Positions 663 through 19,055 of a stretch of 20,636 nt of DNA are shown here, one piece after another. Each line of letters begins with the position of its first letter. Position 1 is the first letter of the stretch. Under the pieces are notes generated by a model. It searched no databases. It had not been told where the DNA came from and saw nothing but the letters and a program-made list of their open reading frames with translations. The translations under genes were made by a program, and so were the position numbers. This stretch comes from a virus. The stretch spans positions 1 to 20,636 of IMG/VR virus record IMGVR_UViG_3300043419_000378; one strand, 5' to 3'.

Positions 663-1404
663 TACCGAGAAGAGCATTAGCCTAGCTGGGCGCAAACTCA
701 TGGTTGCGATCCCAGCTTACGATGGCAAGCTGAATATTGATTCAGCCTTTGCGTTGTCCAACCTCGCCGTTCAGGTGCAGTCGTTGGGGGTTAAGCTCTA
801 TCTCACGCACCTCTCGGGGTGCTCCCTTATTACGAAGGCTCGCAACTGTTTGGTTGCGGACTTCCTCAAATCCGACGCAGACACGCTTCTGTTCGTCGAT
901 GCCGACGTGGTTGTTACCGCCGACGCAGTTCTCCGTTTGATGGCCCTGAGCATTGATAAAGACATCACTGCTGGCATCTACCCACGCCGCGGCATGGACC
1001 GCAAATTCTTCCTTGACTACTACCTTGATGGGAACGGTGGCTTGGAGTTTGACGCCAACGGCATGCTTCGTGTGAAGCGCATTGGCACAGGGTTCATGAT
1101 GATTCAACGCCACGTGCTTGAGACAATGATCGCCAAACACCCAGAGTGGGCGTACGATAACAACGTAGACAACCGCAAAGACCACGCCATTTTTGATCTT
1201 GGTTTGGTTAACGGTGAGTACTACGGCGAAGATTACTTGTTCTGCGACCGTGCAGCCGCCGACGGCTTCACAGTTTTCCTTGACCCCTCCATCAGCTTGC
1301 CCCACGTTGGCACTGAGAAGTTCACCCGTGACTTCGAGGCAGATGTGTTGAAGCCGCTGCTGGAGCAACATTGCACCCCGGTGCTGAAAGTTGTAAATGG
1401 CTAA
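655..1404 (+). CDS. GT-A fold glycosyltransferase
   Basis: This 249-residue protein looks like a nucleotide-sugar-dependent glycosyltransferase of the GT-A fold. Visible marks are the N-terminal beta strand KLMVAIPAYDG (residues 14-24), an ARN triplet at 62-64, and the hydrophobic strand LLFVDADV with a DAD metal-binding motif at 82-84. Further on come a GIYPRRG segment near 113-119 and a late His in SLPHVGTEKF that could ligate the metal. The pattern resembles the Anp1-like phage glycosyltransferases. The substrate is unknown. It could glycosylate a virion protein, host surface glycan or modified DNA base; its place inside the structural operon favours a virion or host-surface target. It overlaps both neighbours by eight bases, which suggests coupled translation. 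Confidence 0.85.
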   Translation: MADTEKSISLAGRKLMVAIPAYDGKLNIDSAFALSNLAVQVQSLGVKLYLTHLSGCSLITKARNCLVADFLKSDADTLLFVDADVVVTADAVLRLMALSIDKDITAGIYPRRGMDRKFFLDYYLDGNGGLEFDANGMLRVKRIGTGFMMIQRHVLETMIAKHPEWAYDNNVDNRKDHAIFDLGLVNGEYYGEDYLFCDRAAADGFTVFLDPSISLPHVGTEKFTRDFEADVLKPLLEQHCTPVLKVVNG

Positions 1405-1651
1405 GTCACCAGCATGGCAGAGAAAAGAAGGCAAGTCAGAGAAGGGCGGCTTGAACGCCAAGGGGCGCGCCTCTTACAACAAAGCCAACCCCGGAAAGCC
1501 CGGTTTGAAAGCTCCTCAGCCAGAGGGCGGAAGCCGTCGCGACTCTTTCTGCGCCAGAATGACTGGGATGAAGAAGAAATTGACTTCCGCGAAGACCGCG
1601 AAAGACCCAAACAGCCGGATTAACAAAAGCCTGAGAGCATGGAATTGTTGA
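1397..1651 (+). CDS. Small basic conserved phage protein
   Basis: This encodes 84 residues, very rich in Lys, Arg and Gly. The N-terminal block SPAWQRKEGKSEKGGLNAKG (residues 4-23) followed by RASYN and a Pro/Gly linker is a signature I recognise from small proteins of cyanophages and other aquatic phages. I recall it as a domain of unknown function, possibly DUF6321, but could not check. A second conserved block, RRDSFCARMTGMKKKLT, lies at residues 47-63. The start overlaps the glycosyltransferase by eight bases. Its basic character suggests nucleic-acid contact or an internal virion role. No function is established. Confidence 0.85.
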   Translation: MAKSPAWQRKEGKSEKGGLNAKGRASYNKANPGKPGLKAPQPEGGSRRDSFCARMTGMKKKLTSAKTAKDPNSRINKSLRAWNC

Positions 1652-1652
1652 G

Positions 1653-1901
1653 ATGGACAACATTTGGAACATCATACTGACGACTGGCTTGGGTCTTTTA
1701 AGCTGGGTGTTGAAGGAAAAATCAGATGAGCTCAGCCGAGTCACAATCCTCCTCAACCGTACCCGCGAAGAGATCGCGAAAGAGTACGTCACAAAAACCG
1801 AAGTCCACGCCGACATCAACCGCGTCTTGGACCGGCTTGATCGCTTGGATGAGAAACTGGATCGCCTTATGGAGAACAAGCATGCCAGCGGTAAGCAGTA
1901 A
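1653..1901 (+). CDS. Membrane-anchored coiled-coil protein
   Basis: This encodes 82 residues. Residues 4-20 form one hydrophobic segment (IWNIILTTGLGLLSWVL), followed by a charged heptad-rich helix to about residue 74 (EKSDELSRVTILLNRTREEI, then VLDRLDRLDEKLDRLME). It therefore looks like a single-pass inner-membrane protein with a coiled coil, or a virion protein with a membrane-active N-terminus. It begins one base after the previous stop, and its last 20 bases overlap the next gene. A role in lysis or DNA ejection is possible but not shown. The topology resembles an inner-membrane spanin or holin partner, but no lipoprotein partner is present and the lysis genes lie 13 kb away. Confidence 0.8.
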   Translation: MDNIWNIILTTGLGLLSWVLKEKSDELSRVTILLNRTREEIAKEYVTKTEVHADINRVLDRLDRLDEKLDRLMENKHASGKQ

Positions 1902-2304
1902 ACAAAAGCGTTTTATGGACGCCGCGGCGCACAACCCAGACTTTGCGAAGCAAGCGGGTGTGCCTCAAAAGGTGGCCAAGGAATATAGCGAAGCTAGCAA
2001 AGGTCTGAAGTTTGGCAAAGGTACCCAATCCCGCGCCGATCTACAGAAGGTAAACAAGCCCAAAACCCTTCAGGGCAAATCTGAACTTTTTTCAAAAGGA
2101 GGCCAAGTCATGGCTAAATCATCTGGTAACGGTATCACTAACGCCAAAATGGGCTCTGTCCGCACTGCTGCTCCCAGCCGTGACGGTGTGGCTTCCAAAG
2201 GTAAAACCAAGGGCACTCAGGTCAAGATGGCCGGTAGCAAGCCTCTGGGTATGAAAAAAGGCGGTGCAGCCAAAGGCATGAAGTACGGCGGCAAAGCCTG
2301 CTAA
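1882..2304 (+). CDS. Basic Lys/Gly-rich protein, possibly a fusion
   Basis: This encodes 140 residues starting at the ATG at 1882, which has GGAG at 1871-1874; the open frame extends further upstream but only inside the previous gene. Residues 7-40 (KQKRFMDAAAHNPDFAKQAG and onward) form a conserved module seen in small phage proteins. The middle is linker-like. The C-terminal part carries SRDGVASKGKTKG (about residues 99-111), a variant of the tail shared by three downstream genes, and then glycine/lysine repeats ending KKGGAAKGMKYGGKAC. A perfect Shine-Dalgarno sequence and in-frame ATG lie inside it at 2097-2112. The gene may therefore be two formerly separate small genes fused, or it may yield two products. 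Function is unknown. Confidence 0.82.
   Translation: MPAVSSKQKRFMDAAAHNPDFAKQAGVPQKVAKEYSEASKGLKFGKGTQSRADLQKVNKPKTLQGKSELFSKGGQVMAKSSGNGITNAKMGSVRTAAPSRDGVASKGKTKGTQVKMAGSKPLGMKKGGAAKGMKYGGKAC
2097..2102 (+). promoter_or_regulatory. Strong internal Shine-Dalgarno site
   Basis: AGGAGG lies seven bases before an in-frame ATG at 2110, inside the coding region 1882-2304. It matches the canonical anti-16S sequence as well as the best sites between genes here, such as those before 381 and 2319. Codons for Lys-Gly-Gly can generate it by chance, which is why its use is uncertain. Confidence 0.45.
2110..2304 (+). CDS. Possible nested in-frame small protein
   Basis: The internal ATG at 2110 with AGGAGG seven bases upstream would give a 64-residue protein that is the C-terminal half of the product of 1882-2304. 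It would begin MAKSSGNG and hold the RDGVASKGKTKG motif and the KKGGAAKG repeats. Its length and composition match the free-standing small basic proteins nearby (64-75 residues), and those usually begin MA-K/D. That supports an ancestral independent gene or a second product. No stop codon separates the two halves, so whether both forms are made cannot be decided from sequence alone. Confidence 0.4.
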   Translation: MAKSSGNGITNAKMGSVRTAAPSRDGVASKGKTKGTQVKMAGSKPLGMKKGGAAKGMKYGGKAC

Positions 2305-2318
2305 TTTAGGAGGCCACC

Positions 2319-2600
2319 ATGGCTAAAGCAAAACGAATCGAGGACATGTCTGAGGCAGAACTCAGCCGTCGTTCTAGCGAAGCTTACGATAAAGCCCGGA
2401 CCAGTCCTGAGCCCGGTGGGTTTGACATCAAACCGATGCTCAAACGCGCCAAAGCGGCAGCCGCAGATAGGGAAGCCGACGCAGCGGACCGTGCATCACG
2501 CACCAACGCCATGGGCGACACCTACAAAAAAGGTGGCACCGCCTCTAGCCGTGCTGATGGCTGCTGCACCAAAGGCAAAACTCGCGGAAAGATGGTGTAA
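2319..2600 (+). CDS. Small basic protein with RADG-KGKTRG tail
   Basis: This encodes 93 residues with AGGAGG at 2308-2313 as ribosome-binding site. The N-terminal two thirds is a charged, Ala-rich, probably helical region (residues 6-66) containing EAELSRRSSEAYDKA and a long Lys/Arg/Ala helix. The last 24 residues run from KKGG through SRADGCCTKGKTRGKMV to the stop. They are the first full copy of a C-terminal tail also present in the genes at 2603 and 4578. Here two cysteines replace Ile-Ala after RADG. Function is unknown; the tail may be a targeting, assembly or processing signal. Confidence 0.85.
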   Translation: MAKAKRIEDMSEAELSRRSSEAYDKARTSPEPGGFDIKPMLKRAKAAAADREADAADRASRTNAMGDTYKKGGTASSRADGCCTKGKTRGKMV

Positions 2601-2602
2601 CC

Positions 2603-3136
2603 ATGGCTACCCGTTGGAGCAAAGTCCCCGGTGGTGATGACGACGTCATTGAGCGCAGTCGCGAAGATGTACAGAAGGTCCGCAAGGGCCTGAACGTAGA
2701 TAAGTCCAACCTCAAAGGTGGGGCGCGCGACGCTGTTCGTGAAGCTGGTTCCCGTGCTGGTGCCCGTTTGGTGAACCGCGCTGGTGCTGCACAACTTGCT
2801 TTCACCGGTGGATATGAAGCTGGTAGAGCATTGGACGAGAAGACTGGCGTTGGTAAAAAGATGGTTGAGAAGTCTGGCCTTGGTGACTTGGCTGAGAAGG
2901 CCGTTAACCGCCGCGATAAGGTTGAACTGTCCAAGAGCGCCAAGGAGCGCGTGGATGAGGATGACCGCTTCAAGGAAGTTGAGCGCGTGCTGCGTGAGAC
3001 CGACGAGGATATTGAGTCTAGCAAGTACGGCAAGGGTGACAAGCTCAAGCGCGGTGGTAGAGTCTCCGTGTCTAAAGCTTCTCGCCGTGCCGACGGTATT
3101 GCAACCAAGGGTAAAACCCGAGGAAGAATCCTATGA
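2603..3136 (+). CDS. Helical basic protein with RADG-KGKTRG tail
   Basis: This encodes 177 residues with the ATG two bases after the preceding stop. The body is highly charged and mostly helical. It has a Gly/Ala-rich central stretch (about residues 49-82, GSRAGARLVNRAGAAQLAFT) and then alternating Lys/Glu segments (residues 93-145) that could form a coiled coil. The last 29 residues repeat the shared tail: KRGG, a spacer slightly longer than in the sister genes, then RRADGIATKGKTRGRIL and stop. The end overlaps the next gene by an ATGA junction. No enzymatic motif is visible. The short Ala/Gly-rich region might interact with membrane, as in some ejected internal proteins, but this is speculation. 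Confidence 0.85.
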   Translation: MATRWSKVPGGDDDVIERSREDVQKVRKGLNVDKSNLKGGARDAVREAGSRAGARLVNRAGAAQLAFTGGYEAGRALDEKTGVGKKMVEKSGLGDLAEKAVNRRDKVELSKSAKERVDEDDRFKEVERVLRETDEDIESSKYGKGDKLKRGGRVSVSKASRRADGIATKGKTRGRIL

Positions 3137-3411
3137 TGGCGAGCCGCGGTATGGGGGATATTGCCCCCTCTAAGATGCCTGAGAAGAAGGTCATTCACCG
3201 CAAGGATGACCCGAACGACGTTGACTACTACGCCGAGGGCGGCAGTGTGAACGAAGCTGGCAACTACACCAAACCCGGTTTGCGTAAGCGGATCGTGTCA
3301 CAGGTGAAAGCCGCGGCTACGCATGGCACCGGTGCTGGCCAATGGTCCGCACGTAAGGCACAATTGGTGGCCAAGAAATACAAAGCCGCTGGCGGTGGGT
3401 ACAGAGACTGA
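3133..3411 (+). CDS. Small protein with GQWSARKAQ motif
   Basis: This encodes 92 residues and starts at the ATG of an ATGA overlap; a second ATG follows at once. After a variable N-terminus with YYAEGGSVNEAGNYT (about residues 32-46) comes a compact conserved domain. It holds KPGLRKRIVSQVKAA and then GAGQWSARKAQLVAKKYKAA, ending GGGYRD. I recognise this block as widespread in aquatic phages and, from memory, in some giant viruses and algae, where its function is unknown. I recall the label DUF5872 but am not sure. The basic helix-rich core suggests DNA or RNA binding. It is paired with the next gene, which carries another family of similar distribution. Confidence 0.85.
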   Translation: MMASRGMGDIAPSKMPEKKVIHRKDDPNDVDYYAEGGSVNEAGNYTKPGLRKRIVSQVKAAATHGTGAGQWSARKAQLVAKKYKAAGGGYRD

Positions 3412-3412
3412 C

Positions 3413-3646
3413 ATGAAAGCGCCGCAACAATCGCTTAAAAATTGGGGCGACCAGAAATGGAGGACCAAAAGTGGAAAACCGTCTAGCAAAACAGGTGAAA
3501 GATACCTTCCAGAAGCTGCGATCAAAAGCCTCAGCCCTGCTGAGTACGCTGCGACAACGCGTGCAAAACGCGCTGGCAAAAAAGCCGGGAAGCAGTTCGT
3601 AGCCCAACCTAAGACTATCGCCAAGAAAACATCGAGGTTCAGATAA
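3413..3646 (+). CDS. Small basic protein, KWRTKSGKPSS family
   Basis: The ATG at 3413 is one base after the previous stop and gives 77 residues; the open frame extends upstream only as a shadow of the preceding gene. Nearly the whole length matches a conserved pattern I remember from phages, and possibly giant viruses: SLKNWGDQKWRTKSGKPSSK (residues 7-26), GERYLPEAAIKSLSPAEYAA (28-47), and a Lys-rich end with GKQFVAQPKTIAKKTSRFR. It has no Cys or TM segment and a high positive charge. Function is unknown; contact with DNA is plausible. Its TAA shares a base with the ATG of the adaptor-like gene, so it is probably translationally coupled to a virion component. Confidence 0.85.
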   Translation: MKAPQQSLKNWGDQKWRTKSGKPSSKTGERYLPEAAIKSLSPAEYAATTRAKRAGKKAGKQFVAQPKTIAKKTSRFR

Positions 3647-4578
3647 TGGCAATCACATCCGGTACCGCAGCATTTAACCTTGACCTAGCTGAGCTGGTCG
3701 AGGAAGCGTTTGAGCGCGCCGGTCGTGAGCTGCGCTCTGGTTATGACCTGCGTACAGCGCGTCGTAGCCTCAACATCATGTTTGCTGACTGGGCTAACCG
3801 CGGCATCAACATGTGGACAATCGAGCAAGGTCAGATTGATCTTGTTCAGGGGCAGAGCACCTATGCGCTTCCCAACGATACCGTTGACTTGTTGGAGCAT
3901 GTCATCCGCACACAGGCGGGGCAGCAGTCCAATCAAGCCGACCTGACAATTACCCGCATCAGCGTTTCGACCTATGCGACTCTCCCAAACAAACTTCAGC
4001 AAGCTCGTCCGATTCAGGTTTGGGTACAACGCCTTGATGGTCAAACGGCAGCGGCAATCACGACTCTTGCGTCTGGCATTTCGGCTACAGACACTACGAT
4101 CTCGTTGACATCAACTTTGGGTATGCCAGCAGCGGGCTTTGTGAAGATTGGTAGTGAGACCATCAACTACACATCAATCAGCGGCAACGACTTGATTAGC
4201 TGCTTCCGTGGGCAAAACGGCACAACCGCCGCTTCTCATTTGGCAGCAGCCCCTGTATCTGTGCAGAGCTTGCCAGCCGTGACTGTGTGGCCCACACCTG
4301 ATGCAGCACAGAGCTATCAGTTTGTTTACTGGCGGCTACGCCGCACCCAAGATGCGGGCGGTGGTGTGAACGTGATGGACGTGCCTTTCCGATTCATTCC
4401 CTGCATGGCTGCCGGTCTGGCGTACTACATCGCAGGCAAGATTCCCGAGGGCGCCGAGCGCCTGATGATGCTCAAGCAGCAATACGATGAGGCTTGGGAG
4501 TTGGCGGCTTATGAAGATCATGAGAAGGCAGCGATTCGCTTCGTACCACGCCAGCAGTACATTGGAGGTGCGATGTAA
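3646..4578 (+). CDS. Adaptor-like tail protein with beta insertion
   Basis: This 310-residue protein looks like a head-to-tail adaptor or upper-tail protein, analogous to T7 gp11. The N-terminal helical part (residues 10-60, including DLAELVEEAFERAG and NIMFADWANRGI) leads into strands ending STYALPNDTVDLLE. The C-terminal part returns to beta strands (YQFVYWRLRR) and a long helical end (residues 247-300), a plan shared with the gene at 6363. Residues 135-205 look like a separate beta module (DTTISLTST, SETINYTS, CFRGQNGTTAASH) that recurs in the large tail protein at 16821. The structural role is inferred from this plan and the neighbours; the exact family was not confirmed. Confidence 0.78.
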   Translation: MAITSGTAAFNLDLAELVEEAFERAGRELRSGYDLRTARRSLNIMFADWANRGINMWTIEQGQIDLVQGQSTYALPNDTVDLLEHVIRTQAGQQSNQADLTITRISVSTYATLPNKLQQARPIQVWVQRLDGQTAAAITTLASGISATDTTISLTSTLGMPAAGFVKIGSETINYTSISGNDLISCFRGQNGTTAASHLAAAPVSVQSLPAVTVWPTPDAAQSYQFVYWRLRRTQDAGGGVNVMDVPFRFIPCMAAGLAYYIAGKIPEGAERLMMLKQQYDEAWELAAYEDHEKAAIRFVPRQQYIGGAM

Positions 4579-4805
4579 TGGCGGATAAAACTCCCTACGC
4601 ACAACAATTTAAAGTGCCCAGCCCTCTGGAGCAAAAAGCTCTGGATAAGGTGGCTAAGGCCAATCTGTCCGCCGAGGAAAAAGAGAAAATTGCAGAAATG
4701 CCTTCGGTAAAACAGTTTGATAAAAAAGCCAAAGGCGGCATGACCGCTTCTATTCGTGCCGACGGTATTGCAGCACGCGGTAAAACTCGCGGGAGAATGG
4801 TCTAA
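4578..4805 (+). CDS. Small basic protein with RADG-KGKTRG tail
   Basis: This encodes 75 residues whose ATG shares a base with the stop of the adaptor-like gene (TAATG). The N-terminal 50 residues are charged and helical (SPLEQKALDKVAKANLSAEE) without a known motif. The final 24 residues are the third full copy of the shared tail: KGGMTASIRADGIAARGKTRGRMV split as KGG, spacer, RADG, GKTRG and a hydrophobic end. Eighteen bases encoding RADGIA are identical to those in the gene ending at 3136, so the tails may share a recent origin. The stop again overlaps the next start. Function is unknown. Confidence 0.87.
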   Translation: MADKTPYAQQFKVPSPLEQKALDKVAKANLSAEEKEKIAEMPSVKQFDKKAKGGMTASIRADGIAARGKTRGRMV

Positions 4806-5243: not shown

Positions 5244-5438
5244 ATGGACAAGAAAGACCTCGCACAAGATAAAAAGACCGCTGCAAAGGCCGTGCACAAG
5301 CACGAAAAAGCCATGCACCCCGGTAAGCCTATGACCAAGATGCGCGCTGGCGGCAAGACCAACAGCGACATGTTGAAGATGGGTCGTAATTTGGCAAAGG
5401 TTGCCAACCAAAAATCGCCCGGTCGTCGCGGAGGCTAA
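5244..5438 (+). CDS. Small Lys-rich hypothetical protein
   Basis: This encodes 64 residues. The ATG at 5244 is chosen because AAGGAG stands at 5232-5237, while the longer frame starts inside the previous gene. The sequence is strongly basic with four His (KKDLAQDKKTAAKAVHKHEK), a central MTKMRAGGK and an end KSPGRRGG. There are no Cys residues, membrane segments or enzyme motifs. It resembles the other small basic proteins in this stretch by size, charge and glycine-rich basic end, but it lacks the RADG tail. A nucleic-acid-associated or internal virion role is only a guess. Confidence 0.75.
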   Translation: MDKKDLAQDKKTAAKAVHKHEKAMHPGKPMTKMRAGGKTNSDMLKMGRNLAKVANQKSPGRRGG

Positions 5439-5440
5439 TC

Positions 5441-5641
5441 ATGGCTACATACAAAACACCAAAGAAAGTTGCTTCGGTTGTGGTGGGTGAAGAGCCCGCA
5501 AAGAAAACCATGCGCGACGCTAACGTGTCTGTGGCCAACACACGCAGCCAAGACTACAAACCCACTAAAACTTCGGGCATCAAGATTCGTGGCACAGGCG
5601 CCGCGACTAAAGGCTTGTACGCTCGCGGACCCATGGCATAA
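5441..5641 (+). CDS. Small basic protein with RGTGAATKG end
   Basis: This encodes 66 residues with the ATG two bases after the previous stop. The first two thirds is Lys/Thr-rich and probably extended. The C-terminus IKIRGTGAATKGLYARGPMA (residues 47-66) is a pattern I recall at the end of other aquatic-phage small proteins. It resembles the RADGxxxKGKTRG tail in rhythm (R-x-G-x-A-T-K-G-x(3)-R-G). The gene ends one base before the homing endonuclease start, so it marks the left edge of that insertion; it would otherwise be followed directly by the second adaptor gene. Function is unknown. Confidence 0.82.
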   Translation: MATYKTPKKVASVVVGEEPAKKTMRDANVSVANTRSQDYKPTKTSGIKIRGTGAATKGLYARGPMA

Positions 5642-5642
5642 C

Positions 5643-6362
5643 ATGCGACACGGCTCTATCTACATTGCAACAAACAAACATACTGGCGATCAGTATGTTG
5701 GGCAGACGCGTCAGCCCGTGCAAAAAAGATGGGCCGCGCATTGGAAGACAGCGGTGTGCCCAACAGCCCGCAAGGCAAAATTTCAACACGCACTCATTGA
5801 GTTTGGTAAAGATGCGTTTTTTGTAGAAGAAGTCTTTGTTGCATTTGATGAAGAAACTTTAAACAATGTTGAAATTGGGTTTATTGCCGATTTAAACCCA
5901 ACGTATAACGCTACTCGTGGTGGTAAAGGGCTACGTCCTGTTGTTGTCTCTCCAGAAACAAAACGTAAACGTTCGGAGGCAGCAAAAGCGCGCTGGGCTA
6001 ATACCGAGTGGCGAGAGAAGACTGTTGACAGTATTAAAAAAGCGGCTCAGACGGACGAAGCTAGAGCACGCGGCAAAAAAGTTGCAGCTATTGGAATTGT
6101 TGCGCGTTGGGCAAAGCATGTCAAAAAACAAAAATCCGCGCCTCGGGTAAAAGTGAGTAAAATTAAACGCGACCCATCTGTAGGGCGCTTCTTGTCCGCC
6201 AAAGCAAAATGGAAACCTGTGTACTGCCCAGAACTACAGTGTTCTTTTTTATCCCAAAAAGCAGCGGCAGAATTTTTAGGAGTGGTACGCACAAGCGTAA
6301 CGAATGCTGTTAAGCAGAAAGGCAAAGTGGCACGTATGTACACTTTGGAAAAGGTGGCGTAA
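5643..6362 (+). CDS. GIY-YIG homing endonuclease
   Basis: This 239-residue enzyme should make a site-specific DNA break that promotes copying of its own gene. The GIY-YIG domain opens with GSIYIATN (residues 4-11) and YVGQT (18-22). The conserved Arg29 and His33 lie in KRWAAH, and the likely metal-binding Glu77 in NNVEIGF. A NUMOD3-like DNA-binding segment follows (SPETKRKRSEAAKARW, 103-118), and the end (193-239, LSQKAAAEFLGVVRTSVTNA) is a helix-turn-helix of the NUMOD1/IENR1 type. The start at 5643 is one base after the previous stop; the open frame further upstream is a shadow. The gene is visibly more AT-rich than its neighbours, a sign of recent entry. It directly abuts the adaptor gene. 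Confidence 0.93.
   Translation: MRHGSIYIATNKHTGDQYVGQTRQPVQKRWAAHWKTAVCPTARKAKFQHALIEFGKDAFFVEEVFVAFDEETLNNVEIGFIADLNPTYNATRGGKGLRPVVVSPETKRKRSEAAKARWANTEWREKTVDSIKKAAQTDEARARGKKVAAIGIVARWAKHVKKQKSAPRVKVSKIKRDPSVGRFLSAKAKWKPVYCPELQCSFLSQKAAAEFLGVVRTSVTNAVKQKGKVARMYTLEKVA
6351..6357 (+). promoter_or_regulatory. Ribosome-binding site for ATT start
   Basis: AAGGTGG lies inside the last codons of the homing endonuclease, five bases before the ATT at 6363. It is the only good Shine-Dalgarno sequence near the beginning of the adaptor frame, and it supports initiation at that non-ATG codon, as known for the ATT start of infC. Confidence 0.5.
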
Positions 6363-7094
6363 ATTACATACCAAGAACTTTTTGCGGCAATTCAAAGCTA
6401 CACAGAAAACCAGTTCCCTGAGACTTATCTTGCTGATGGTAGTGCTGTGTCCACCGAGACACAGATCAACACTTTCATTGAGCAGGCGGAACAGCGCATC
6501 TTTAACACGGTGCAGTTTCCATCGTTGCGTAAGAACGTCACAGGCACCACAACCACGAACAACAAATACTTGTCGTGCCCCAGCGACTTCCTGTCCGTCT
6601 ACTCGATGGCGGTGATTGACGGTACCGGTGCGTACGAATATTTGTTGAACAAGGATGTGAACTTCATCCGTCAAGCTTACCCACAGCCAACTGACACGGC
6701 GTTGCCAAAATACTACGCCTTGTTTGGGCCAACAACCACCAACGATGCGACGCCTGTTATTACTGACGAGCTGTCGTTCATCTTGGGTCCCACACCTGAC
6801 GCCGCGTACAGCGTTGAGCTGCACTATTACTACTACCCCGAGTCGATCACCACCGCCGCTGATGGTCGTACGTGGTTGGGTGACAACTTTGATTCCGTGC
6901 TGTTGTACGGTTCTTTGGTTGAGGCTTACACCTTCATGAAGGGTGAGGCTGACATGGTGGCGTTGTACAACACCAAATACCAAGAAGCACTTGCAATGGC
7001 TTCGCGTCTGGGCAATGGTCTGGAGCGCAGTGACGCTTACCGTAGCGGGCAATCACGCCTTGCGCCCCTACCTCAGAATAACGGGGTCAAATAA
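6363..7094 (+). CDS. Tail adaptor protein (SU10-adaptor-like), ATT start
   Basis: This 243-residue protein (counting from 6363) matches the plan of the phage SU10-type adaptor that joins portal and tail. It has an N-terminal helical part (TYQELFAAIQSYTENQFP, then INTFIEQAEQRIFNTVQFP), strands with a conserved NKYLSCPSDFLSVYS segment, a YEYLLNKDVNFIRQAYP loop, FILGPTPDA, and a C-terminal helix bundle (LLYGSLVEAYTFMKGEAD). Reading back from the GTG at 6447, conserved-looking sequence continues to the homing-gene stop at 6362, with no ATG, GTG, TTG or CTG between. ATT at 6363 is therefore the likely start; a GTG start would delete the first helix. The end shares a base with the next ATG. Confidence 0.82.
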   Translation: MTYQELFAAIQSYTENQFPETYLADGSAVSTETQINTFIEQAEQRIFNTVQFPSLRKNVTGTTTTNNKYLSCPSDFLSVYSMAVIDGTGAYEYLLNKDVNFIRQAYPQPTDTALPKYYALFGPTTTNDATPVITDELSFILGPTPDAAYSVELHYYYYPESITTAADGRTWLGDNFDSVLLYGSLVEAYTFMKGEADMVALYNTKYQEALAMASRLGNGLERSDAYRSGQSRLAPLPQNNGVK

Positions 7095-7522
7095 TGGCAC
7101 TCGCTCAAGGCGCAACAAATACATTCAAGCTCGGGTTGCCAAACGGCGACTTCGACTTCACGACAGACACATTCAAGATCGCGCTGTACACCGGTGCAGC
7201 TTCGATCGGTCCTGACACATCTGCGTACACAACTGATGGTGAGACTGTGGCCACTGGCTACACTGCTGGCGGTGAAACGCTGACTGTCACACAGACACCT
7301 ACAATCGGTAACCAGACAGGTAATGCCACGGCGTACTTGTCGTTTGCGAATGTCACATGGACTTCGGCGTTGACCGCACGCGGCGCGCTGATCTATAAGT
7401 CGGGTTCTGGTAACCCAACGGTCTGTGTGCTGGACTTCGGCGGCGACAAAACATCAACAACAACTTTCACGGTGCAGTTCCCCGCTGTCACCAACACAGC
7501 GGCGATCATTCGCATTTCCTAA
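7094..7522 (+). CDS. Beta-rich virion protein
   Basis: This encodes 142 residues beginning at a TAATG junction. The sequence is Thr/Gly/Ala-rich with regular strand patterns (FDFTTDTFKIALYTG at residues 20-34, NATAYLSFANVTWTSALTAR in the middle, TTTFTVQFPAVTNTAAIIRIS at the end). The opening LGLPNGDFDFTTDTFKIALY is a signature I remember from tail-associated proteins of many uncultured phages, usually annotated hypothetical. There are no catalytic motifs. It is followed after 11 bases by another beta-rich protein of the same general kind. A tail or fibre-base structural role is inferred from composition and position. Confidence 0.82.
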   Translation: MALAQGATNTFKLGLPNGDFDFTTDTFKIALYTGAASIGPDTSAYTTDGETVATGYTAGGETLTVTQTPTIGNQTGNATAYLSFANVTWTSALTARGALIYKSGSGNPTVCVLDFGGDKTSTTTFTVQFPAVTNTAAIIRIS

Positions 7523-7533
7523 GGAGCCAACAA

Positions 7534-8052
7534 ATGTTGACCAACAAAGCTAAAGCCGGTGGCGTTTACAAAGTGGTTTGCCACGACGCCGATGGAAACC
7601 TCAAGTGGGAAGAAAGCACCCACAACCTCGTGGTGAACACAGGTCTGCAAAACATGAACACTCAGTTCTTCAAGGGCAGTGCATATACCGCCGCTTGGTA
7701 CTTGGGTCTAATTACTGGTCCCGGTTCGGGCACCACGATTGCTGCTGGCGACACACTGGCTACACACGCAGGCTGGACTGAGTTCACCAACTATTCTGGT
7801 AACCGCAAGGCCGTGACATTTGGCACCGCTACAACTGCTGACCCATCAGTGATTGACAACTCTGGTGCACCTTCTCAGTTCACCATCAGTGGTGGCGGCG
7901 GTGTGGTGGCTGGCGCGTTCTTGTGTAACGTTGCCACAGGTACATCAGGTATCTTGTTCTCGGCTTCTGATTTCCAATCGCCCGGCGACCGTACAGTTGT
8001 GTCTGGTGACACATTGACTGTGACCTACACCTTCAGCTTGGATGCGGCTTAA
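7534..8052 (+). CDS. Beta-rich virion protein
   Basis: This encodes 172 residues with AAGGAG at 7520-7525 ahead of the ATG. The N-terminal part reads like a two-strand unit followed by NLVVNTGLQNMNTQFFKG (residues 31-48). Then comes a long Gly/Thr-rich beta region with AAWYLGLITGPG, GWTEFTNYSGNRKAVTF and a C-terminal SGDTLTVTYTFSLDAA. The pattern is known to me from phage tail proteins of aquatic metagenomes, where it usually sits beside the preceding family. No enzyme motif is seen. It probably contributes to the tail or fibre base; the evidence is contextual. Confidence 0.82.
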   Translation: MLTNKAKAGGVYKVVCHDADGNLKWEESTHNLVVNTGLQNMNTQFFKGSAYTAAWYLGLITGPGSGTTIAAGDTLATHAGWTEFTNYSGNRKAVTFGTATTADPSVIDNSGAPSQFTISGGGGVVAGAFLCNVATGTSGILFSASDFQSPGDRTVVSGDTLTVTYTFSLDAA

Positions 8053-8237: not shown

Positions 8238-8741
8238 ATGGCGTTCGTACTTGCTGATCGTGTCCGTGAGACCACGACGACTACGGGTACGGGCACCGTC
8301 ACCCTTGGTGGAGCCGCGACCGGCTTCCAAACCTTTGCTGCGATTGGCAACGGCAACTCGACCTACTACACCATCGCCGGTCAAGGCACGAACGAGTGGG
8401 AAGTGGGTATCGGTACCTACACTTCCAGCGGCACTACGCTCTCACGCGACACGGTGCTCTCGTCTTCCAACAGCGGTTCGCTCGTCAACTTCTCGTCTGG
8501 CACGAAGGATGTGTTTGTAACGCAGCCTGCTGGGCGCACTGTGTATGTCGGTGCAAGCAACCAAACGATCTATGGTGCCAACAACGCGCAAGGTAACATG
8601 GGCCTGCTTGTGAACGCTGACCTCATCAGCAACAACTACACATTGCCGTCTGGGTTTAACGCACTGTCTGTCGGCCCGGTTTCTGTGGCCAGCGGCGTGA
8701 CGGTTACTGTTACCAGCGGCCAAAACTGGGTGACCATCTAA
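8238..8741 (+). CDS. Short tail-fibre / fibre-base protein
   Basis: This encodes 167 residues. The N-terminal 100 residues are a module I recognise from many phage fibre proteins. It starts AFVLADRVRETTTTTGTGT, passes FAAIGNGNSTYYTIAGQG (residues 35-52) and EWEVGIGTYTSSGTTLSRD (53-71), and ends SGTKDVFVTQPAGRTV. This module often forms the N-terminal, particle-attached part of longer fibres. Here it is followed by only 65 residues of beta-like sequence, so the protein is either a stand-alone base protein or the attachment half of a split fibre whose distal parts are the next two genes. The stop shares a base with the next ATG. Confidence 0.85.
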   Translation: MAFVLADRVRETTTTTGTGTVTLGGAATGFQTFAAIGNGNSTYYTIAGQGTNEWEVGIGTYTSSGTTLSRDTVLSSSNSGSLVNFSSGTKDVFVTQPAGRTVYVGASNQTIYGANNAQGNMGLLVNADLISNNYTLPSGFNALSVGPVSVASGVTVTVTSGQNWVTI

Positions 8742-10075
8742 TGTCTACGATCAGCGCATCAACCACAACCACCACCGCGTTCAAGATCACGACGGACACC
8801 ACAGGTGCGCTTGTCTTCCAGACAGGTGCTTCGCCAACTACGGCGTTAACAATTGATGGTTCACAAAGAGCAGCTTTTGTTGCCGGTACTGCCGCAGCTC
8901 CCGCAATCACAACTTCAGGCGATACAAACACAGGTATCTTCTTCCCTGCTGCTGACACTATTGCCTTCGCTGAAGGCGGTACAGAAGCCATGCGTCTTGA
9001 TAGCTCTGGCAACATGGGTATTGGTTTAACTCCTAGCGGCTGGACTCTTGGTAGGGCCTTGCAGGTTGGTCCGACATCGGCGCTGTTTGACTACACAGGG
9101 ACCACGTATCTTTCAGGCAACTGGTACTACGGTGGGGGGCAAAAGTTTATAGCCAACGGGTACGCGGGGCAATACCAAATCAGCACAAGTGATGGCAAAC
9201 ATATTTGGACTACCACTACTGTTAATAATAGCAGCGGTGCGGGTGCTGCCGCTACATTTAATACTTTGATGACGCTTGATGCCTCTGGTAATTTAGGTTT
9301 GGGGGTTGCCCCCCAAACATGGAACGTTATAACACCGTTGCAAATCAAAAACGCCAGCTTTGGTGGGTATGTAACAGGTACAACTTACAACGCGTATGTA
9401 GGGTCAAACTGGTATTACAACAGCGGTGACAAATATATTAGTAACGGGTTCGCAACTGTTTATGTGCAGACTACTGGGCAGCATCTGTGGTACACATCCG
9501 CCTCCGGCACAGCAGGTAACGCCGTCAGCTTTACCCAAGCAATGACGCTTGACTCTAGTGGTAACTTTACCGTTGGGGCTACCGTAGCAAATCCTATTGT
9601 TAGCGGTGTTAACGGCCTAAAATATTTTTCTTCCTTTGGTGTATTGCAGGTTAATTCAAACAACAACGCAGCATTAGAAGTAGGTCGGTTTGGTGGGACT
9701 GGTGCTTTTATTAATTTTTACTACACGGGTAGCGGGGTTGGTTCTATATCAACCAATGGATCTTCAACAGCCTATAACACGTCGTCCGATTACCGACTAA
9801 AAGAAAACATTGCCCCTATGACAGATGCGCTGTCTGTCGTGGCGCAACTCAGGCCATGCACGTACACATGGAAATCAACAGGCGAGGCTGGTCAAGGCTT
9901 TATTGCTCACGAGCTTCAAGCTGTTGTGCCTGATGCGGTACATGGCGAAAAAGATGCGGTCAACAAAGATGGTTCAATCAAACCTCAAGGCATCGACACC
10001 AGCTTTTTGGTAGCTACTCTGACAGCAGCCATACAAGAACTCAACGAACGCCTTGAAGCACTGGAGCCTAAATAA
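8741..10075 (+). CDS. Tail fibre with S74 endosialidase-chaperone domain
   Basis: This 444-residue fibre protein ends in an intramolecular chaperone of endosialidase domain (Peptidase S74). That domain drives trimerisation of the fibre and then usually cuts itself off. It begins around the serines at 348-349, with SSDYRLKENIAPM followed by GQGFIAHELQAVVPDAV and a coiled C-terminal helix (ATLTAAIQELNERLEALEP). Ser349 and the following Lys354 are candidates for the catalytic pair. The stalk has two copies of a module of about 92 residues (roughly 84-176 and 177-267), each opening with MxLDxSGN and containing GNWYYGGGQKFIANG or SNWYYNSGDKYISNG. A third, diverged copy lies in the next gene. Receptor specificity is unknown. 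Confidence 0.92.
   Translation: MSTISASTTTTTAFKITTDTTGALVFQTGASPTTALTIDGSQRAAFVAGTAAAPAITTSGDTNTGIFFPAADTIAFAEGGTEAMRLDSSGNMGIGLTPSGWTLGRALQVGPTSALFDYTGTTYLSGNWYYGGGQKFIANGYAGQYQISTSDGKHIWTTTTVNNSSGAGAAATFNTLMTLDASGNLGLGVAPQTWNVITPLQIKNASFGGYVTGTTYNAYVGSNWYYNSGDKYISNGFATVYVQTTGQHLWYTSASGTAGNAVSFTQAMTLDSSGNFTVGATVANPIVSGVNGLKYFSSFGVLQVNSNNNAALEVGRFGGTGAFINFYYTGSGVGSISTNGSSTAYNTSSDYRLKENIAPMTDALSVVAQLRPCTYTWKSTGEAGQGFIAHELQAVVPDAVHGEKDAVNKDGSIKPQGIDTSFLVATLTAAIQELNERLEALEPK
8990..9541 (+). repeat. Tandem ~92-residue fibre stalk modules
   Basis: Two consecutive coding units (about 8990-9268 and 9269-9541) give alignable proteins. Both start M[RT]LD[SA]SGN[ML]G[IL]G, have a conserved NWYY followed by KFIANG or KYISNG, and end where the next TLDxSGN begins. 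A third copy is at about 10504-10791 in the following gene (ILNSSGNLGL to TQAMTLSTGN). The similarity is at protein level, with diverged DNA, so the duplication is not recent. Confidence 0.7.
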
Positions 10076-11652
10076 TGCCCGCAATCATTCTTTCTGACAA
10101 CGGCGCGACCAGCGGCTCGGCTGGGCTGAAGACGTCCGGCGGCAATGACGGCGTATTGCTGTTGCAAACGACAACGGCGGGGGGAACTCCGACCACGGCC
10201 ATCAGCATCTCAAACACACAGGTCGTCACATACACCAACCAGCCAACATACACAGGCGGCACAGCCAACGGGGTTGCATATCTGAACGGCAGCAAAGTGC
10301 TGACCACAGGCTCGGCCTTGACCTTTGACGGTACAAAAACAGCTGAGGTATCGAGCGCAGCTACTGACTACACGGGGTTAATTCTGAATAACACCAGCGC
10401 CAGCGGTAAACGATACAACTTGGCCTCTGCTGGGTCCGGCAGTTATTTTGATATTCCCACCGGTGCGTTTGGCATTCGTGACCTTACCGCAGGGGCCACG
10501 CGTATTATTCTTAACTCTTCAGGAAACTTAGGCTTGGCTGCTACTCCCAGTGCTTGGCAGTCTTCTTATAAAGCTTTCCAGATTACAGACTACGGCACAA
10601 ATCTTTATGGCTATTCTGGTGGCGGCGGCATCACAGGTCTGAGCCACAACGCCTACTTCGACGGCTCAAACTGGAAGTATCAAGTAGGTACTTTCAACGC
10701 TGCGAAATACGCAATGGACGGCACCGGAGTGCATAGCTGGTTTACATCAGGTTCTGGCTCGGCGGGTTCAAACGTCACCTTCACCCAAGCAATGACGCTT
10801 TCGACTGGCAATACGCTTAGTGTTCTTGGCAACTTTACCTGCGGACAAGTGGTAGCTTCGTTGGCGGACGTAGGTCTTAACATGTACGGAGGAAGCGATG
10901 CAAGCTCTTACACACGTATTCGGGCTTTCCAAGGAACTGCTGGTAATAACTTCTCCACAATCCACTTCTTTTCTTCAAACTGGAACGGCGGCGGTTTTGA
11001 AGCTAGCTCGCAGGGAGCAATTAACGTTTCTGGTGGCACAGGTGTAACGTTCGGCGCGTGGAACGCCCCCGATGCCTCGATTAACTCAATTCGTATGCGG
11101 TTGAATGGTGATCGCTATTTGCTGTGCGGGCCGAATTCAGGGTGGACCAGATTCCTTCAGGTTGGTGGCAATCAGAGGTACGACTCTGGTTGGGCGTCCA
11201 TCATTACCACTGACGGAAACCTGCACCTTGACCCGAAATCCGGTAACGAGATGTACCTTAACTATTACAACGGTAATGCCGTAGGTGTGTATAACGGTTT
11301 ATCTAATGGCGGTTACGGCACAATCAAAGCCGCTGCGTTTACGGTGTCATCTGACTACCGCCTGAAAGAAAACATTGTTCCGATTGCTGATGGCGCTTTG
11401 GCTTCTGTGCTTGCACTGTCACCAAAAGAATATGATCTAGCTGGCTACGATACCCGCCGTTTTTACGGCTTTTTGGCGCACGAGTTGGCAGAGCATTTCC
11501 CGGTCGCAGTTGTTGGTGAAAAAGACGCTGTTAAAGAAAATGGCACCCCTGACTACCAAGGTGTTGAATACATGCAGCTTGTGCCTGTTTTGGCAAAAGC
11601 CTTGCAAGAGTTATATGCAGAGTTCAACGCATACAGATTAACCCACCCATAA
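10075..11652 (+). CDS. Second tail fibre with S74 chaperone domain
   Basis: This 525-residue fibre protein begins at the base shared with the previous stop. The N-terminus (PAIILSDNGATSGSAGLKTS, then LLLQTTTAGGTPTTAISISN) is a fibre module common in phages. Residues about 144-239 are one copy of the stalk module found twice in the previous gene. The C-terminal S74 domain begins near Ser425-Ser426 with SSDYRLKENIVPIADGALAS. It continues with FYGFLAHELAEHFPVAVVGE and YMQLVPVLAKALQELYAEF, the last forming the terminal helix. Auto-cleavage and trimerisation are expected from the family. Two adjacent fibres with this ending suggest either a branched tail apparatus or alternative receptor-binding proteins. 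AAGGAAC follows for the next gene. Confidence 0.92.
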   Translation: MPAIILSDNGATSGSAGLKTSGGNDGVLLLQTTTAGGTPTTAISISNTQVVTYTNQPTYTGGTANGVAYLNGSKVLTTGSALTFDGTKTAEVSSAATDYTGLILNNTSASGKRYNLASAGSGSYFDIPTGAFGIRDLTAGATRIILNSSGNLGLAATPSAWQSSYKAFQITDYGTNLYGYSGGGGITGLSHNAYFDGSNWKYQVGTFNAAKYAMDGTGVHSWFTSGSGSAGSNVTFTQAMTLSTGNTLSVLGNFTCGQVVASLADVGLNMYGGSDASSYTRIRAFQGTAGNNFSTIHFFSSNWNGGGFEASSQGAINVSGGTGVTFGAWNAPDASINSIRMRLNGDRYLLCGPNSGWTRFLQVGGNQRYDSGWASIITTDGNLHLDPKSGNEMYLNYYNGNAVGVYNGLSNGGYGTIKAAAFTVSSDYRLKENIVPIADGALASVLALSPKEYDLAGYDTRRFYGFLAHELAEHFPVAVVGEKDAVKENGTPDYQGVEYMQLVPVLAKALQELYAEFNAYRLTHP

Positions 11653-16820: not shown

Positions 16821-19055
16821 ATGCCGTTACAAAAACTTCAATTCCGCCCCGGTGTCAACCGCGAAGGCACAACTCTAGCCAACGAAGGTGGCTGGTTTGA
16901 GTGCGACAAAATTCGCTTTCGTTCGGGCTTTCCCGAGAAGTTAGGCGGCTGGATTCTTGATACCGGCACGTACTACCCGACTGCTCCCATAGGCACGCTT
17001 GTGGCGAGTGGCACAGAAACATCCGCAGTTCCCCCAGCCGGTGCGTATTGGGGCGTATGTCGTTCGATGTGGAATTGGTATTCGCTGGCTGGTAACAATT
17101 ATCTGGGTATGGGTACGAACCTGAAGTTCTACATCCAAAACGGCCCCAACGGTTACTTCTACGACATCACACCTATTCGTGACACAAACACAACTTCGGC
17201 TGGCACTGCGTTTTCGACGGTCAATGCTTCTACTACGGTAACTGTTAATGACCCCGGACACGGCGCACAGACGGGCGACTTTGTGATGATCTCTGGCGTG
17301 AGCGGCGCGGTCAATGGTATCCCCGACACAGCCCTGAACCGTGAGTTCCAGATCACATATCTGAACGGCAACCAATACAACATCACCGTTGGTTCTCCAG
17401 CTACATCTACTAACACTGCGGGCACTGCCACTCTGACCTATCAAATCACATCAGGTTCGGCTACATACACTGTGGCTACTGGTTGGGGCGCGGGTAACTG
17501 GGGCGGTACTACATCAGGTTCTGTCACGACCACATTGAACGGCTCGATCAACTCAAGTGCCACCTCCATCACATTGACATCCGCAGCATCCTTTACTGCG
17601 TCTGGCACGATTGTTATTGATACCGAGTCCATCACATACTCCGGCAAATCAACAAACACATTGACTGGCTGCGTGCGCGGGGCAAACGGTACAAGAGCTG
17701 CTGCTCACACTTCCGGCGCTACTGTTACTCAAGTCGCTTCTTCTTGGACTGGATGGGGTCAGGCCGCTGCAAGTGGTGTTGGTATTCAACTACGTATCTG
17801 GAGTCAATCAAATTACGGCGAGGATTTGATTTTCAACCCACGTGGTGGCGCGTTGTATTACTGGTCGGTAAACGCTAACCCCAACATATTTGATCGTGGT
17901 GTGGTTATGCAAGCGGGCACAACTGTTAATGGCGCGGTCATGGATAGCACAACGCCGTCAGTTGCCAACTTAGTCATGGTGTCTGACTCATCGCGTTTTG
18001 TGATTTGTTTCGGCACCAATGACCCGTCGGGCGCTTTGTTTTCAGCAACCCAAGACCCACTGCTTATTCGTTGGTCACAGCAAGAAGAGTTCTACACATG
18101 GACGCCTTCACCAACAAACCAAGCAGGTGACTACCGCCTGAGCCGTGGTTCTGAGATCGTGGCTGCACAGCAAACCCGTCAAGAAATTTTGGTGTGGACT
18201 GACGCCGCCTTGTACTCTATGCAGTACTTGGGCCCCCCATATGTTTGGGGCTTCCAGATCATGGGTGACAACTTGTCTATCGCTGGTCCGAACGTGGTGT
18301 CTGTGGCAAACAACGTGACCTACTGGATGGGTACCGACAAGTTCTATATGTACTCAGGTCGTGTGGAAACATTGCCATGCACCTTGCGTCAGTATGTCTT
18401 CCAAGACATCAACATGCAGCAGTCGTATCAGTTTTTCTCTAGCACCAACGAAGGCTACAACGAGATTTGGTGGTTCTACTGCTCGGCCAACAGCAACACA
18501 ATCGACAAGTATGTGGTGTTTAACCATCTTGAACGCACTTGGTATTACGGCACGATGGCACGCACTGCTTGGCTTGATAGCCCACTGCGTGAAGTGCCTA
18601 TGGCTGCTGGCTATAACGGCCAGTTGATTTATCACGAGACAGGTAACGACGACGGAACTATTATCGACCCCGATACAGGTAACCCCGCGCCGATTGAAGC
18701 TTACTGCCAATCCTCTGACTTTGATATCGGTGACGGACACAACTTCGGTATCGTGTGGCGCATTATTCCTGATGTGACCTTTGACGGGTCAGATACTGCA
18801 TCGCCTTCGCTGGACTTCACTGTGCGCCCACGCCAAAACCCCGGCACGGCATACGGCACATCTGATAGCCCTACCATCACGAGCGGCAATAACTACTCAG
18901 GCCAACGCACATACAACGTGCAGCAGTTCACCGAGTATGCCTACGTGCGTATCCGTGGTCGTCAGATGGCGTTCAAAATTAGCTCCAACGACCTTGGTGT
19001 TGCTTGGCAACTCGGCACGCCGCGTATTGATGTGCGCCCAGACGGACGACGCTAA
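16821..19055 (+). CDS. Large nozzle-like tail protein
   Basis: This 744-residue protein is probably the tubular or nozzle component of a short tail, analogous to T7 gp12. Its start, LQKLQFRPGVNREGTTLANE followed by GGWFECDKIRFRSGFPEKLG (residues 4-43), is a signature I remember from podoviruses of marine and freshwater bacteria. Long beta-rich blades follow, with conserved segments such as YRLSRGSEIVAAQQTRQEIL and WMGTDKFYMYSGRVETLPC. Two extra modules interrupt the fold. Residues about 133-209 (VTVNDPGHGAQTGDFVMISG) look like a small beta domain, and 235-305 (SATSITLTSAASF, CVRGANGTRAAAHTSG) match the insertion in the adaptor-like gene at 3646. AGGAAA precedes the ATG. The role is inferred from family resemblance and context. 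Confidence 0.83.
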   Translation: MPLQKLQFRPGVNREGTTLANEGGWFECDKIRFRSGFPEKLGGWILDTGTYYPTAPIGTLVASGTETSAVPPAGAYWGVCRSMWNWYSLAGNNYLGMGTNLKFYIQNGPNGYFYDITPIRDTNTTSAGTAFSTVNASTTVTVNDPGHGAQTGDFVMISGVSGAVNGIPDTALNREFQITYLNGNQYNITVGSPATSTNTAGTATLTYQITSGSATYTVATGWGAGNWGGTTSGSVTTTLNGSINSSATSITLTSAASFTASGTIVIDTESITYSGKSTNTLTGCVRGANGTRAAAHTSGATVTQVASSWTGWGQAAASGVGIQLRIWSQSNYGEDLIFNPRGGALYYWSVNANPNIFDRGVVMQAGTTVNGAVMDSTTPSVANLVMVSDSSRFVICFGTNDPSGALFSATQDPLLIRWSQQEEFYTWTPSPTNQAGDYRLSRGSEIVAAQQTRQEILVWTDAALYSMQYLGPPYVWGFQIMGDNLSIAGPNVVSVANNVTYWMGTDKFYMYSGRVETLPCTLRQYVFQDINMQQSYQFFSSTNEGYNEIWWFYCSANSNTIDKYVVFNHLERTWYYGTMARTAWLDSPLREVPMAAGYNGQLIYHETGNDDGTIIDPDTGNPAPIEAYCQSSDFDIGDGHNFGIVWRIIPDVTFDGSDTASPSLDFTVRPRQNPGTAYGTSDSPTITSGNNYSGQRTYNVQQFTEYAYVRIRGRQMAFKISSNDLGVAWQLGTPRIDVRPDGRR

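Follow-up and report, generated by a model that had tools for sequence, protein, structure and literature searches.

Three small genes in a podovirus genome fragment encode proteins that differ in their N-terminal parts (bodies) and share one C-terminal end, a basic, glycine-rich peptide that we call the tail. The fragment is IMG/VR record IMGVR_UViG_3300043419_000378, analysed as the entire linear virus record of 20,636 bases (hereafter, the window). It is probably part of a genome, and spans from a small protein in the cement-protein slot of relatives (153-368) to the nozzle and beyond (16821-19055). The tail is confined to one podovirus group, large, mostly uncultured and from freshwater, where it is carried by many unrelated bodies encoded in one slot of the virion module. 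Our tentative reading is that it serves as a docking tag through which diverse late proteins enter the virus particle, like the capsid targeting sequence (CTS) of phage T4 in working but unrelated to it. As far as our searches show, the tag, its position and its breadth are undescribed, and the proposed function is of a known kind.

Three window genes end in the same peptide

All tailed genes, tail copies and landmark genes located below lie on the plus strand of the window. The gene at 2319..2600 (93 residues) ends directly at its stop codon in tail copy 1, KKGGTASSRADGCCTKGKTRGKMV (2526..2597; seen in the sequence and by profile search), with the layout KKGG-TASS-RADG-CCTK-GKTRG-KMV. The gene at 2603..3136 (177 residues) ends in copy 2, KRGGRVSVSKASRRADGIATKGKTRGRIL (3047..3133; profile search), laid out as RGG-RVSVSKASR-RADG-IATK-GKTRG-RIL before the stop. 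The third gene, at 4578..4805 (75 residues), stands immediately 3' of adaptor 1 and ends in copy 3, AKGGMTASIRADGIAARGKTRGRMV (4728..4802; profile search), with KGG-MTASI-RADG-IAAR-GKTRG-RMV before the stop. A first-pass annotation, made from the letters of the window, had reported a shared tail on these three genes, and it is present exactly there. Two details of that description needed correction: the spacer from KGG or RGG to RADG measures 4-9 residues instead of 4-8, and the gap between RADG and GKTRG does hold three variable residues, as described, plus a K or R, making four in all. The same annotation pointed to an internal variant, SRDGVASKGKTKG, in the gene at 1882..2304 and to a related end, RGTGAATKGLYARGPMA, at 5641, both of which are present in the sequence. 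The former gene is a core gene of the slot; its N-terminal 40 residues correspond to phrog_16759 (PHROG and profile matches), and the degenerate internal form of the tail, SRDGVASKGKTKG with its neighbours, occupies 2170..2214 (profile search, E 1.4e-5). The latter is a companion gene (5441..5641) ending in RGTGAATKGLYARGPMA, which in relatives fills the slot before adaptor 2.

The coding pattern DG-x4-GKT-x-G occurs four times in the window and in none of 100 dinucleotide-preserving shuffles. A tail profile of 26 rows, the window's own three tails among them, finds those three tails and the internal variant with E values from 3.6e-15 to 1.4e-5. The tag has about 20 residues, and the tail consensus is AKGGxxSASxRADGIAxRGKTRGKMx. 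The tail itself had no match in PHROGs or Pfam and nothing meaningful in the PDB, and none of the papers covered by a literature search contains the tail peptides that were looked for. The bodies of the three genes, including that of 2319..2600, had no Pfam or PADLOC match and no significant PHROG match. In low-confidence structure models the tail is predicted to be unstructured, with no helix or confident fold, and the body of the 2603..3136 protein is predicted to be helical; these models were kept out of fold searches. Nothing usable came from searching the PDB with the tail or with three slot proteins.

The tail is a phage trait and lies mostly at C-termini

A degenerate DNA pattern search of the viral collection returned at least 120 matches. 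Among the matches listed, 163 of 198 closed open reading frames (ORFs) end exactly three residues past the last G, and the remaining 35 carry an extension of at least nine residues, for example GTMITMKNGGMC. With a relaxed pattern, all fetched loci together yield 350 C-terminal tails on 213 contigs. The matches are thus not placed at random within proteins, and many contigs carry more than one tail, as one would expect of the sorting signal that the first-pass annotation had envisaged. In the family of the 1882 gene the tail is internal rather than C-terminal, and in a few relatives it stands at the N-terminus of another small protein, the one that precedes the gene we call the ARGPM gene (L182 6707-6898, L214 9321-9509, L138 6807-7013). 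The window counterpart of that small protein (5244-5438) starts differently.

Among cellular genomes of 84,980 species, the pattern was found on only five contigs. Two of these, L128 and a contig from a Chitinophagales metagenome-assembled genome (MAG), carry capsid and adaptor genes of the same phage group; another, from a Gammaproteobacteria MAG (L127), has a tailed DUF6321 gene together with adaptor genes, and a further match (L129) looks like chance. So small a number, several of them with the phage module, indicates that the tail is a phage trait and not a general cellular one. The Chitinophagales contig (L152, 83.8 kb) holds capsid, adaptor and two tailed genes of the phage group, and either is phage sequence that binning placed in the MAG or hints at a host among the Bacteroidota.

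One tail is carried by many unrelated bodies

With the cut-off chosen, the number of families among the tailed bodies changes from 130 to 166; some families are larger, with up to 35-66 members. On contigs with several tails, every body belongs to a different family (97 of 97 contigs). The N-terminal parts of the three window proteins had been described as showing no mutual resemblance, and in the family comparison the tailed bodies are not homologous either. Pfam and PHROG scans of the largest tailed bodies recovered only DUF6321, phrog_16759 and its relatives, and one weak match; PADLOC gave no match.

The portability of the tail is clearest for DUF6321 (PF19846). The window copy (1397..1651, Pfam) scores 68.9 bits against a curated cut-off of 28.5 and lacks the tail. 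The C-terminus of this domain is conserved as SLRAWNC, with a final Cys. In 23 of 96 DUF6321 ORFs the reading frame runs past this Cys, and by alignment all 23 extensions are the tail, as in SLRAWNC-ADGGYVTQADGCATKGKTKGRFV. Since the tail here stands behind a complete known domain, its gain is seen directly. Mapped onto the adaptor tree, it was gained or lost at least 4-5 times in DUF6321. Other bodies exchange one tail for another: a single body has the VSSASKRADGCAIRGKTKGRMA tail in L085 and the VRGCGIAQRGLTKGKVL tail in L252, a second body has either tail form (L063, L269), and two bodies with 98% identity differ in bearing a short versus an extended tail (L080, L101).

DUF6321 also occurs in 541 phage records, nearly all of them aquatic. 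It aligns with the C-terminus of PHROG families that are 99-928 positions long, and has the look of another C-terminal module of phage proteins, larger than the tail. It differs from the tail in being a domain of 80 residues with unrelated sequence, and is itself a tail carrier in the virus group of the window.

Tailed genes occupy one slot of the virion module

To avoid selection on the tail, an unbiased sample of 80 loci was fetched by adaptor 1, and position was scored in the 37 of these that have all three of the capsid, adaptor 1 and adaptor 2 genes. One or more strict tails are present in 30 of the 37, and a relaxed tail in all 37. In these adaptor-selected loci, the major capsid gene lies on one side and adaptor 2 on the other side of every strict tail (67 of 67). 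This slot is also the only place where tails occur in genomes of 39-65 kb, and in long genomes they cluster inside about 1-5 kb. Where loci had instead been selected by the tail, genes of the module adjoin it in 123 of 125. The usual gene order is terL, portal, GroES, capsid, cement, DUF6321, holin-like and tailed genes, followed by adaptor 1, a zinc-ribbon gene, the ARGPM gene and adaptor 2, with the nozzle further on. The slot adjoins the major head protein (phrog_371). In the window, its landmark is adaptor 1, an SU10-type head-tail adaptor (3646..4578), and its end is adaptor 2, a virion structural protein (phrog_2941; 6447..7094). The homologue of the nozzle or stabilisation protein (phrog_3287; 16821..19055) belongs to the same virion module.

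The companion gene at 5441-5641 represents a very common family, about one per contig, with the end KTSGIKIRGTGAATKGxMARGPMA. In relatives it usually stands immediately before adaptor 2; in the window, an ORF with a GIY-YIG-like start (5644-6362) separates the two. Further downstream, 8741-10075 and 10075-11652 encode tandem fibre-like proteins, each with an SDYRLKENI region near its end, which we take to be typical of intramolecular chaperone (peptidase S74-like) domains.

Related tail forms in the same virus group

A second form of the tail, RGCGxAx[KR]GxT[KR]G, which is interchangeable with the RADG form, was found in 81 stretches; each one that was examined has the same module next to it. 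In this form the K of GKT is replaced by L, F, H, M or R. A third end, GGLVxRGQGRVIKxKKTKMY, occurs on small proteins of contigs that bear the portal and capsid genes of the same group (examples are L333, L334, L323-L350 and DSL-LC04 7313-7657). In DSL-LC04 it is attached to a body that bears the RADG tail in L032. This end and the RGTGAATKG..ARGPMA end before adaptor 2 come from the same virus group as the tail and share with it a GG-spacer-[KR]GxG layout near the stop, whereas their sequence and slot are different. The likeness is suggestive of a common origin. Cys is the last residue in 72 of 350 tailed proteins, compared to about 4% of long ORFs, and a final Cys is seen in other slot proteins as well (RAWNC, GGKAC).

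Selection acts on the peptide, with an added role for its last codons

Across 160 distinct tails, the fixed residues are encoded by many synonymous codons. This free synonymous variation indicates that selection acts on the peptide. The last Gly is a partial exception. Where the next ATG is no more than 8 nucleotides away, this Gly is GGA or GGG in 141 of 210 tails, compared with 8 of 38 for the other tails; the Gly of GKT, used as a control, is GGA or GGG in 7 of 248. This bias indicates that the final tail codons also provide the ribosome-binding site for the next, overlapping gene, a role that covers part of the constraint at the extreme end and not RADG or GKT. In the window, GAGGAAG (3120..3126) lies within the tail codons 6 nucleotides before the ATG at 3133 and is a likely ribosome-binding site, and GGGAG (4791..4795) lies within the tail codons 9 nucleotides before the ATG at 4805.

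Tails on non-homologous bodies are more alike within a contig (0.774) than between contigs (0.710; 0 of 3000 permutations), and a control matched for G+C content gives 0.715 between contigs. The between-contig likeness is flat at 0.71 across 30-90% adaptor identity, and co-evolution with the adaptor as partner is therefore not supported. Recent gene duplication does not explain the multiple tails either: of 98 pairs from the same contig, just 4 attain a nucleotide identity of 90%, and none of the within-contig tailed pairs has homologous bodies. The excess of synonymous identity within contigs is small and borderline (0.051, 95% interval -0.008 to 0.105), which leaves room for some tail copying within genomes.

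Links to virus particles

Two cyanophage isolates connect a slot family to the virion. DUF6321 forms the end of S-SCSM1 gp29, which is labelled a virion protein in the phage record. By mass spectrometry, the S-SCSM1 virion proteome comprises 45 proteins (PMC9602691), and on our own reading of the record the gp29 label reflects such detection. DUF6321 also forms the end of S-CREM2 gp137, for which four unique peptides are given in the virion proteome table (PMC10665884). A third phage, P-SCSP1u, encodes DUF6321 in the interval from the capsid gene to gp11, and its structure paper yielded no proteomics. RaK2-like jumbo-phage proteins that are annotated as virion structural start with the N-terminal 40 residues of the 1882 protein, as do two PHROGs. 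This 40-residue domain (1882-2004 in the window, phrog_16759) is common to jumbo phages such as 201phi2-1 and PhiPA3.

The suggestion of a sorting or packaging signal in the first-pass annotation stands as regards the conserved end on diverse bodies, and for loading into the particle the support is only indirect, from where the genes lie and from the DUF6321 proteomes. Processing, which it had also raised, found no support: a C-terminal cleavage signal is unlikely because the tail also occurs internally in the 1882 family and N-terminally in a few relatives.

Comparison with known labelling peptides

The internal proteins of T4 are small and divergent and share a short, N-terminal targeting peptide, and foreign proteins fused to this CTS are carried into the head and delivered (PMC9026906). 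The likeness to IPI, IPII and IPIII of T4 is that one short peptide stands on several divergent small proteins of one phage. The differences are considerable: the CTS is N-terminal, 10-19 residues long and removed by the prohead protease gp21, whereas the tail, whose packaging is putative, is mostly C-terminal, basic, glycine-rich and unrelated in sequence, and bears no sign of cleavage. Inspected by eye, it shows no acidic site of the kind that gp21 cuts. The annotation of the DSL-LC04 head module includes no separate prohead protease, although unassigned genes remain.

Encapsulin cargo-loading peptides are short, C-terminal, found on unrelated cargo, and bind an HK97-fold shell. The tail lacks the GSL-type motif of these peptides and belongs to a tailed-phage context. 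Small hydrophilic virion proteins are also encoded in the head/connector region of T7, near the portal gene (gp6.7 and gp7.3), and we know of no T7 tail of this kind shared by several proteins. We regard this as a working analogy only.

Weighing the explanations

A single fixed peptide, exchangeable bodies, a slot in the virion module and disordered ends, together with the T4 precedent, lead us to favour a docking label, and we place it ahead of nucleic-acid binding, action in the infected cell and a role at the DNA or RNA level, in that order. The second of these, which we consider unlikely, would make the tail a general nucleic-acid-binding end that coats or condenses phage DNA or, late in the infection cycle, binds RNA, with no specific protein partner, its presence in particles being passive. 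It would suit the median net charge of +6 of the 28-residue tail (the bodies have about +4 per 100 residues) and the predicted lack of structure, and would tolerate an internal or N-terminal position. However, a DNA-coating end should tolerate change, and strict tails hardly vary at R, D, G, G, K, T and G, an acidic D is kept in the RADG form, and the length past the last G is mostly fixed at three. Since R, D, G, K and T were in the search pattern, the constant distance to the stop carries more weight. Less likely again is a late function in the infected cell, with the tail targeting diverse anti-host proteins to one host structure such as the membrane, ribosome or a protease. Host-takeover proteins are often diverse and unrecognised, as are the tailed bodies, and 324 of the 350 tails finish in V, C, I, Y or L, a hydrophobic end that would fit a host target. 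Against this, all tails lie in the virion module and none with replication genes, the pattern is nearly absent from cellular genomes, and we know of no signal of this form on cellular proteins.

We give marginally lower weight to the idea that the tail is kept mainly at the DNA or RNA level, as the ribosome-binding site of the next gene and as a 3' recombination arm for body cassettes. The next ATG does overlap or lie within 3 nucleotides in 196 of 248 tails, the codon bias at the last Gly appears when that ATG is near, and body and tail recombine. This accounts for only the last few codons, whereas RADG and GKT are kept as amino acids with synonymous change free, and a mean nucleotide identity of 0.64 among tails is poor for homologous recombination. 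Two further explanations are very improbable. That the tail is the end of one protein family with N-terminal parts diverged beyond recognition might draw on the larger body families and on the basic, low-complexity character of most bodies. The presence of different families on one contig argues against it, and we reject it because complete DUF6321 domains occur with and without the tail, which refutes it for that family, and because the same body occurs with different tails. The weakest of all is a degenerate P-loop binding a nucleotide phosphate. Letter for letter, the RADG form DG[IC]AxxGKT fits the Walker A pattern [AG]x4GK[ST], but the homologous RGCG form has GLT, GFT, GHT, GMT or GRT in place of GKT, which largely refutes this reading, and the five residues left before the stop are too few for a helix, of which none is predicted.

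The docking tag has its own difficulties. A tailed protein has not been observed in any virion, and the DUF6321 proteins of S-SCSM1 and S-CREM2 are untailed, so that this family can enter virions without the tail, which is unnecessary for its entry; this speaks against the tail as its sole signal. The position of the genes is circumstantial evidence for a cargo role, because phages keep non-virion genes in the virion module too. The tail is also internal or N-terminal in some proteins, its receptor is putative, and the flat between-contig likeness means that recent tail copying fits the within-genome similarity at least as well as a co-evolving partner. Searches of the phage collection turned up no isolate that carries the tail, and tblastn with the tail alone gave no match there, possibly because so short a query is filtered; the cultured relatives DSL-LC04, HTVC023P and CRP-901 have the module and lack the RADG tail.

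Under the docking-tag reading, the small, basic and mostly disordered proteins would be made late in infection from the slot between the major capsid and adaptor genes. The shared tail would bind one common phage component, most plausibly in the head interior or at the portal-adaptor vertex, and the unrelated bodies would thereby be carried into the particle, from where they could enter the next cell along with the DNA. A bolder version, which we think doubtful, is that the slot is a cargo locus: in these widespread, uncultured aquatic podoviruses the address label would load any of more than 100 unrelated small proteins for delivery to the host before gene expression, sister tags encoded next to the portal and adaptor 2 genes would address neighbouring parts of the connector, and new cargo would arise by fusing the tag behind an existing gene.

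If the docking tag is real, it would offer a sequence handle on virion cargo in a very common, mostly uncultured phage group, and the last 20 residues would be enough to list, from metagenomes, which proteins go into the cell along with the DNA. The tag could also be used to take reporter proteins into a podovirus head. Finally, it would imply that marking a varied set of internal proteins with a single short peptide, as T4 does, evolved a separate time in other phages.

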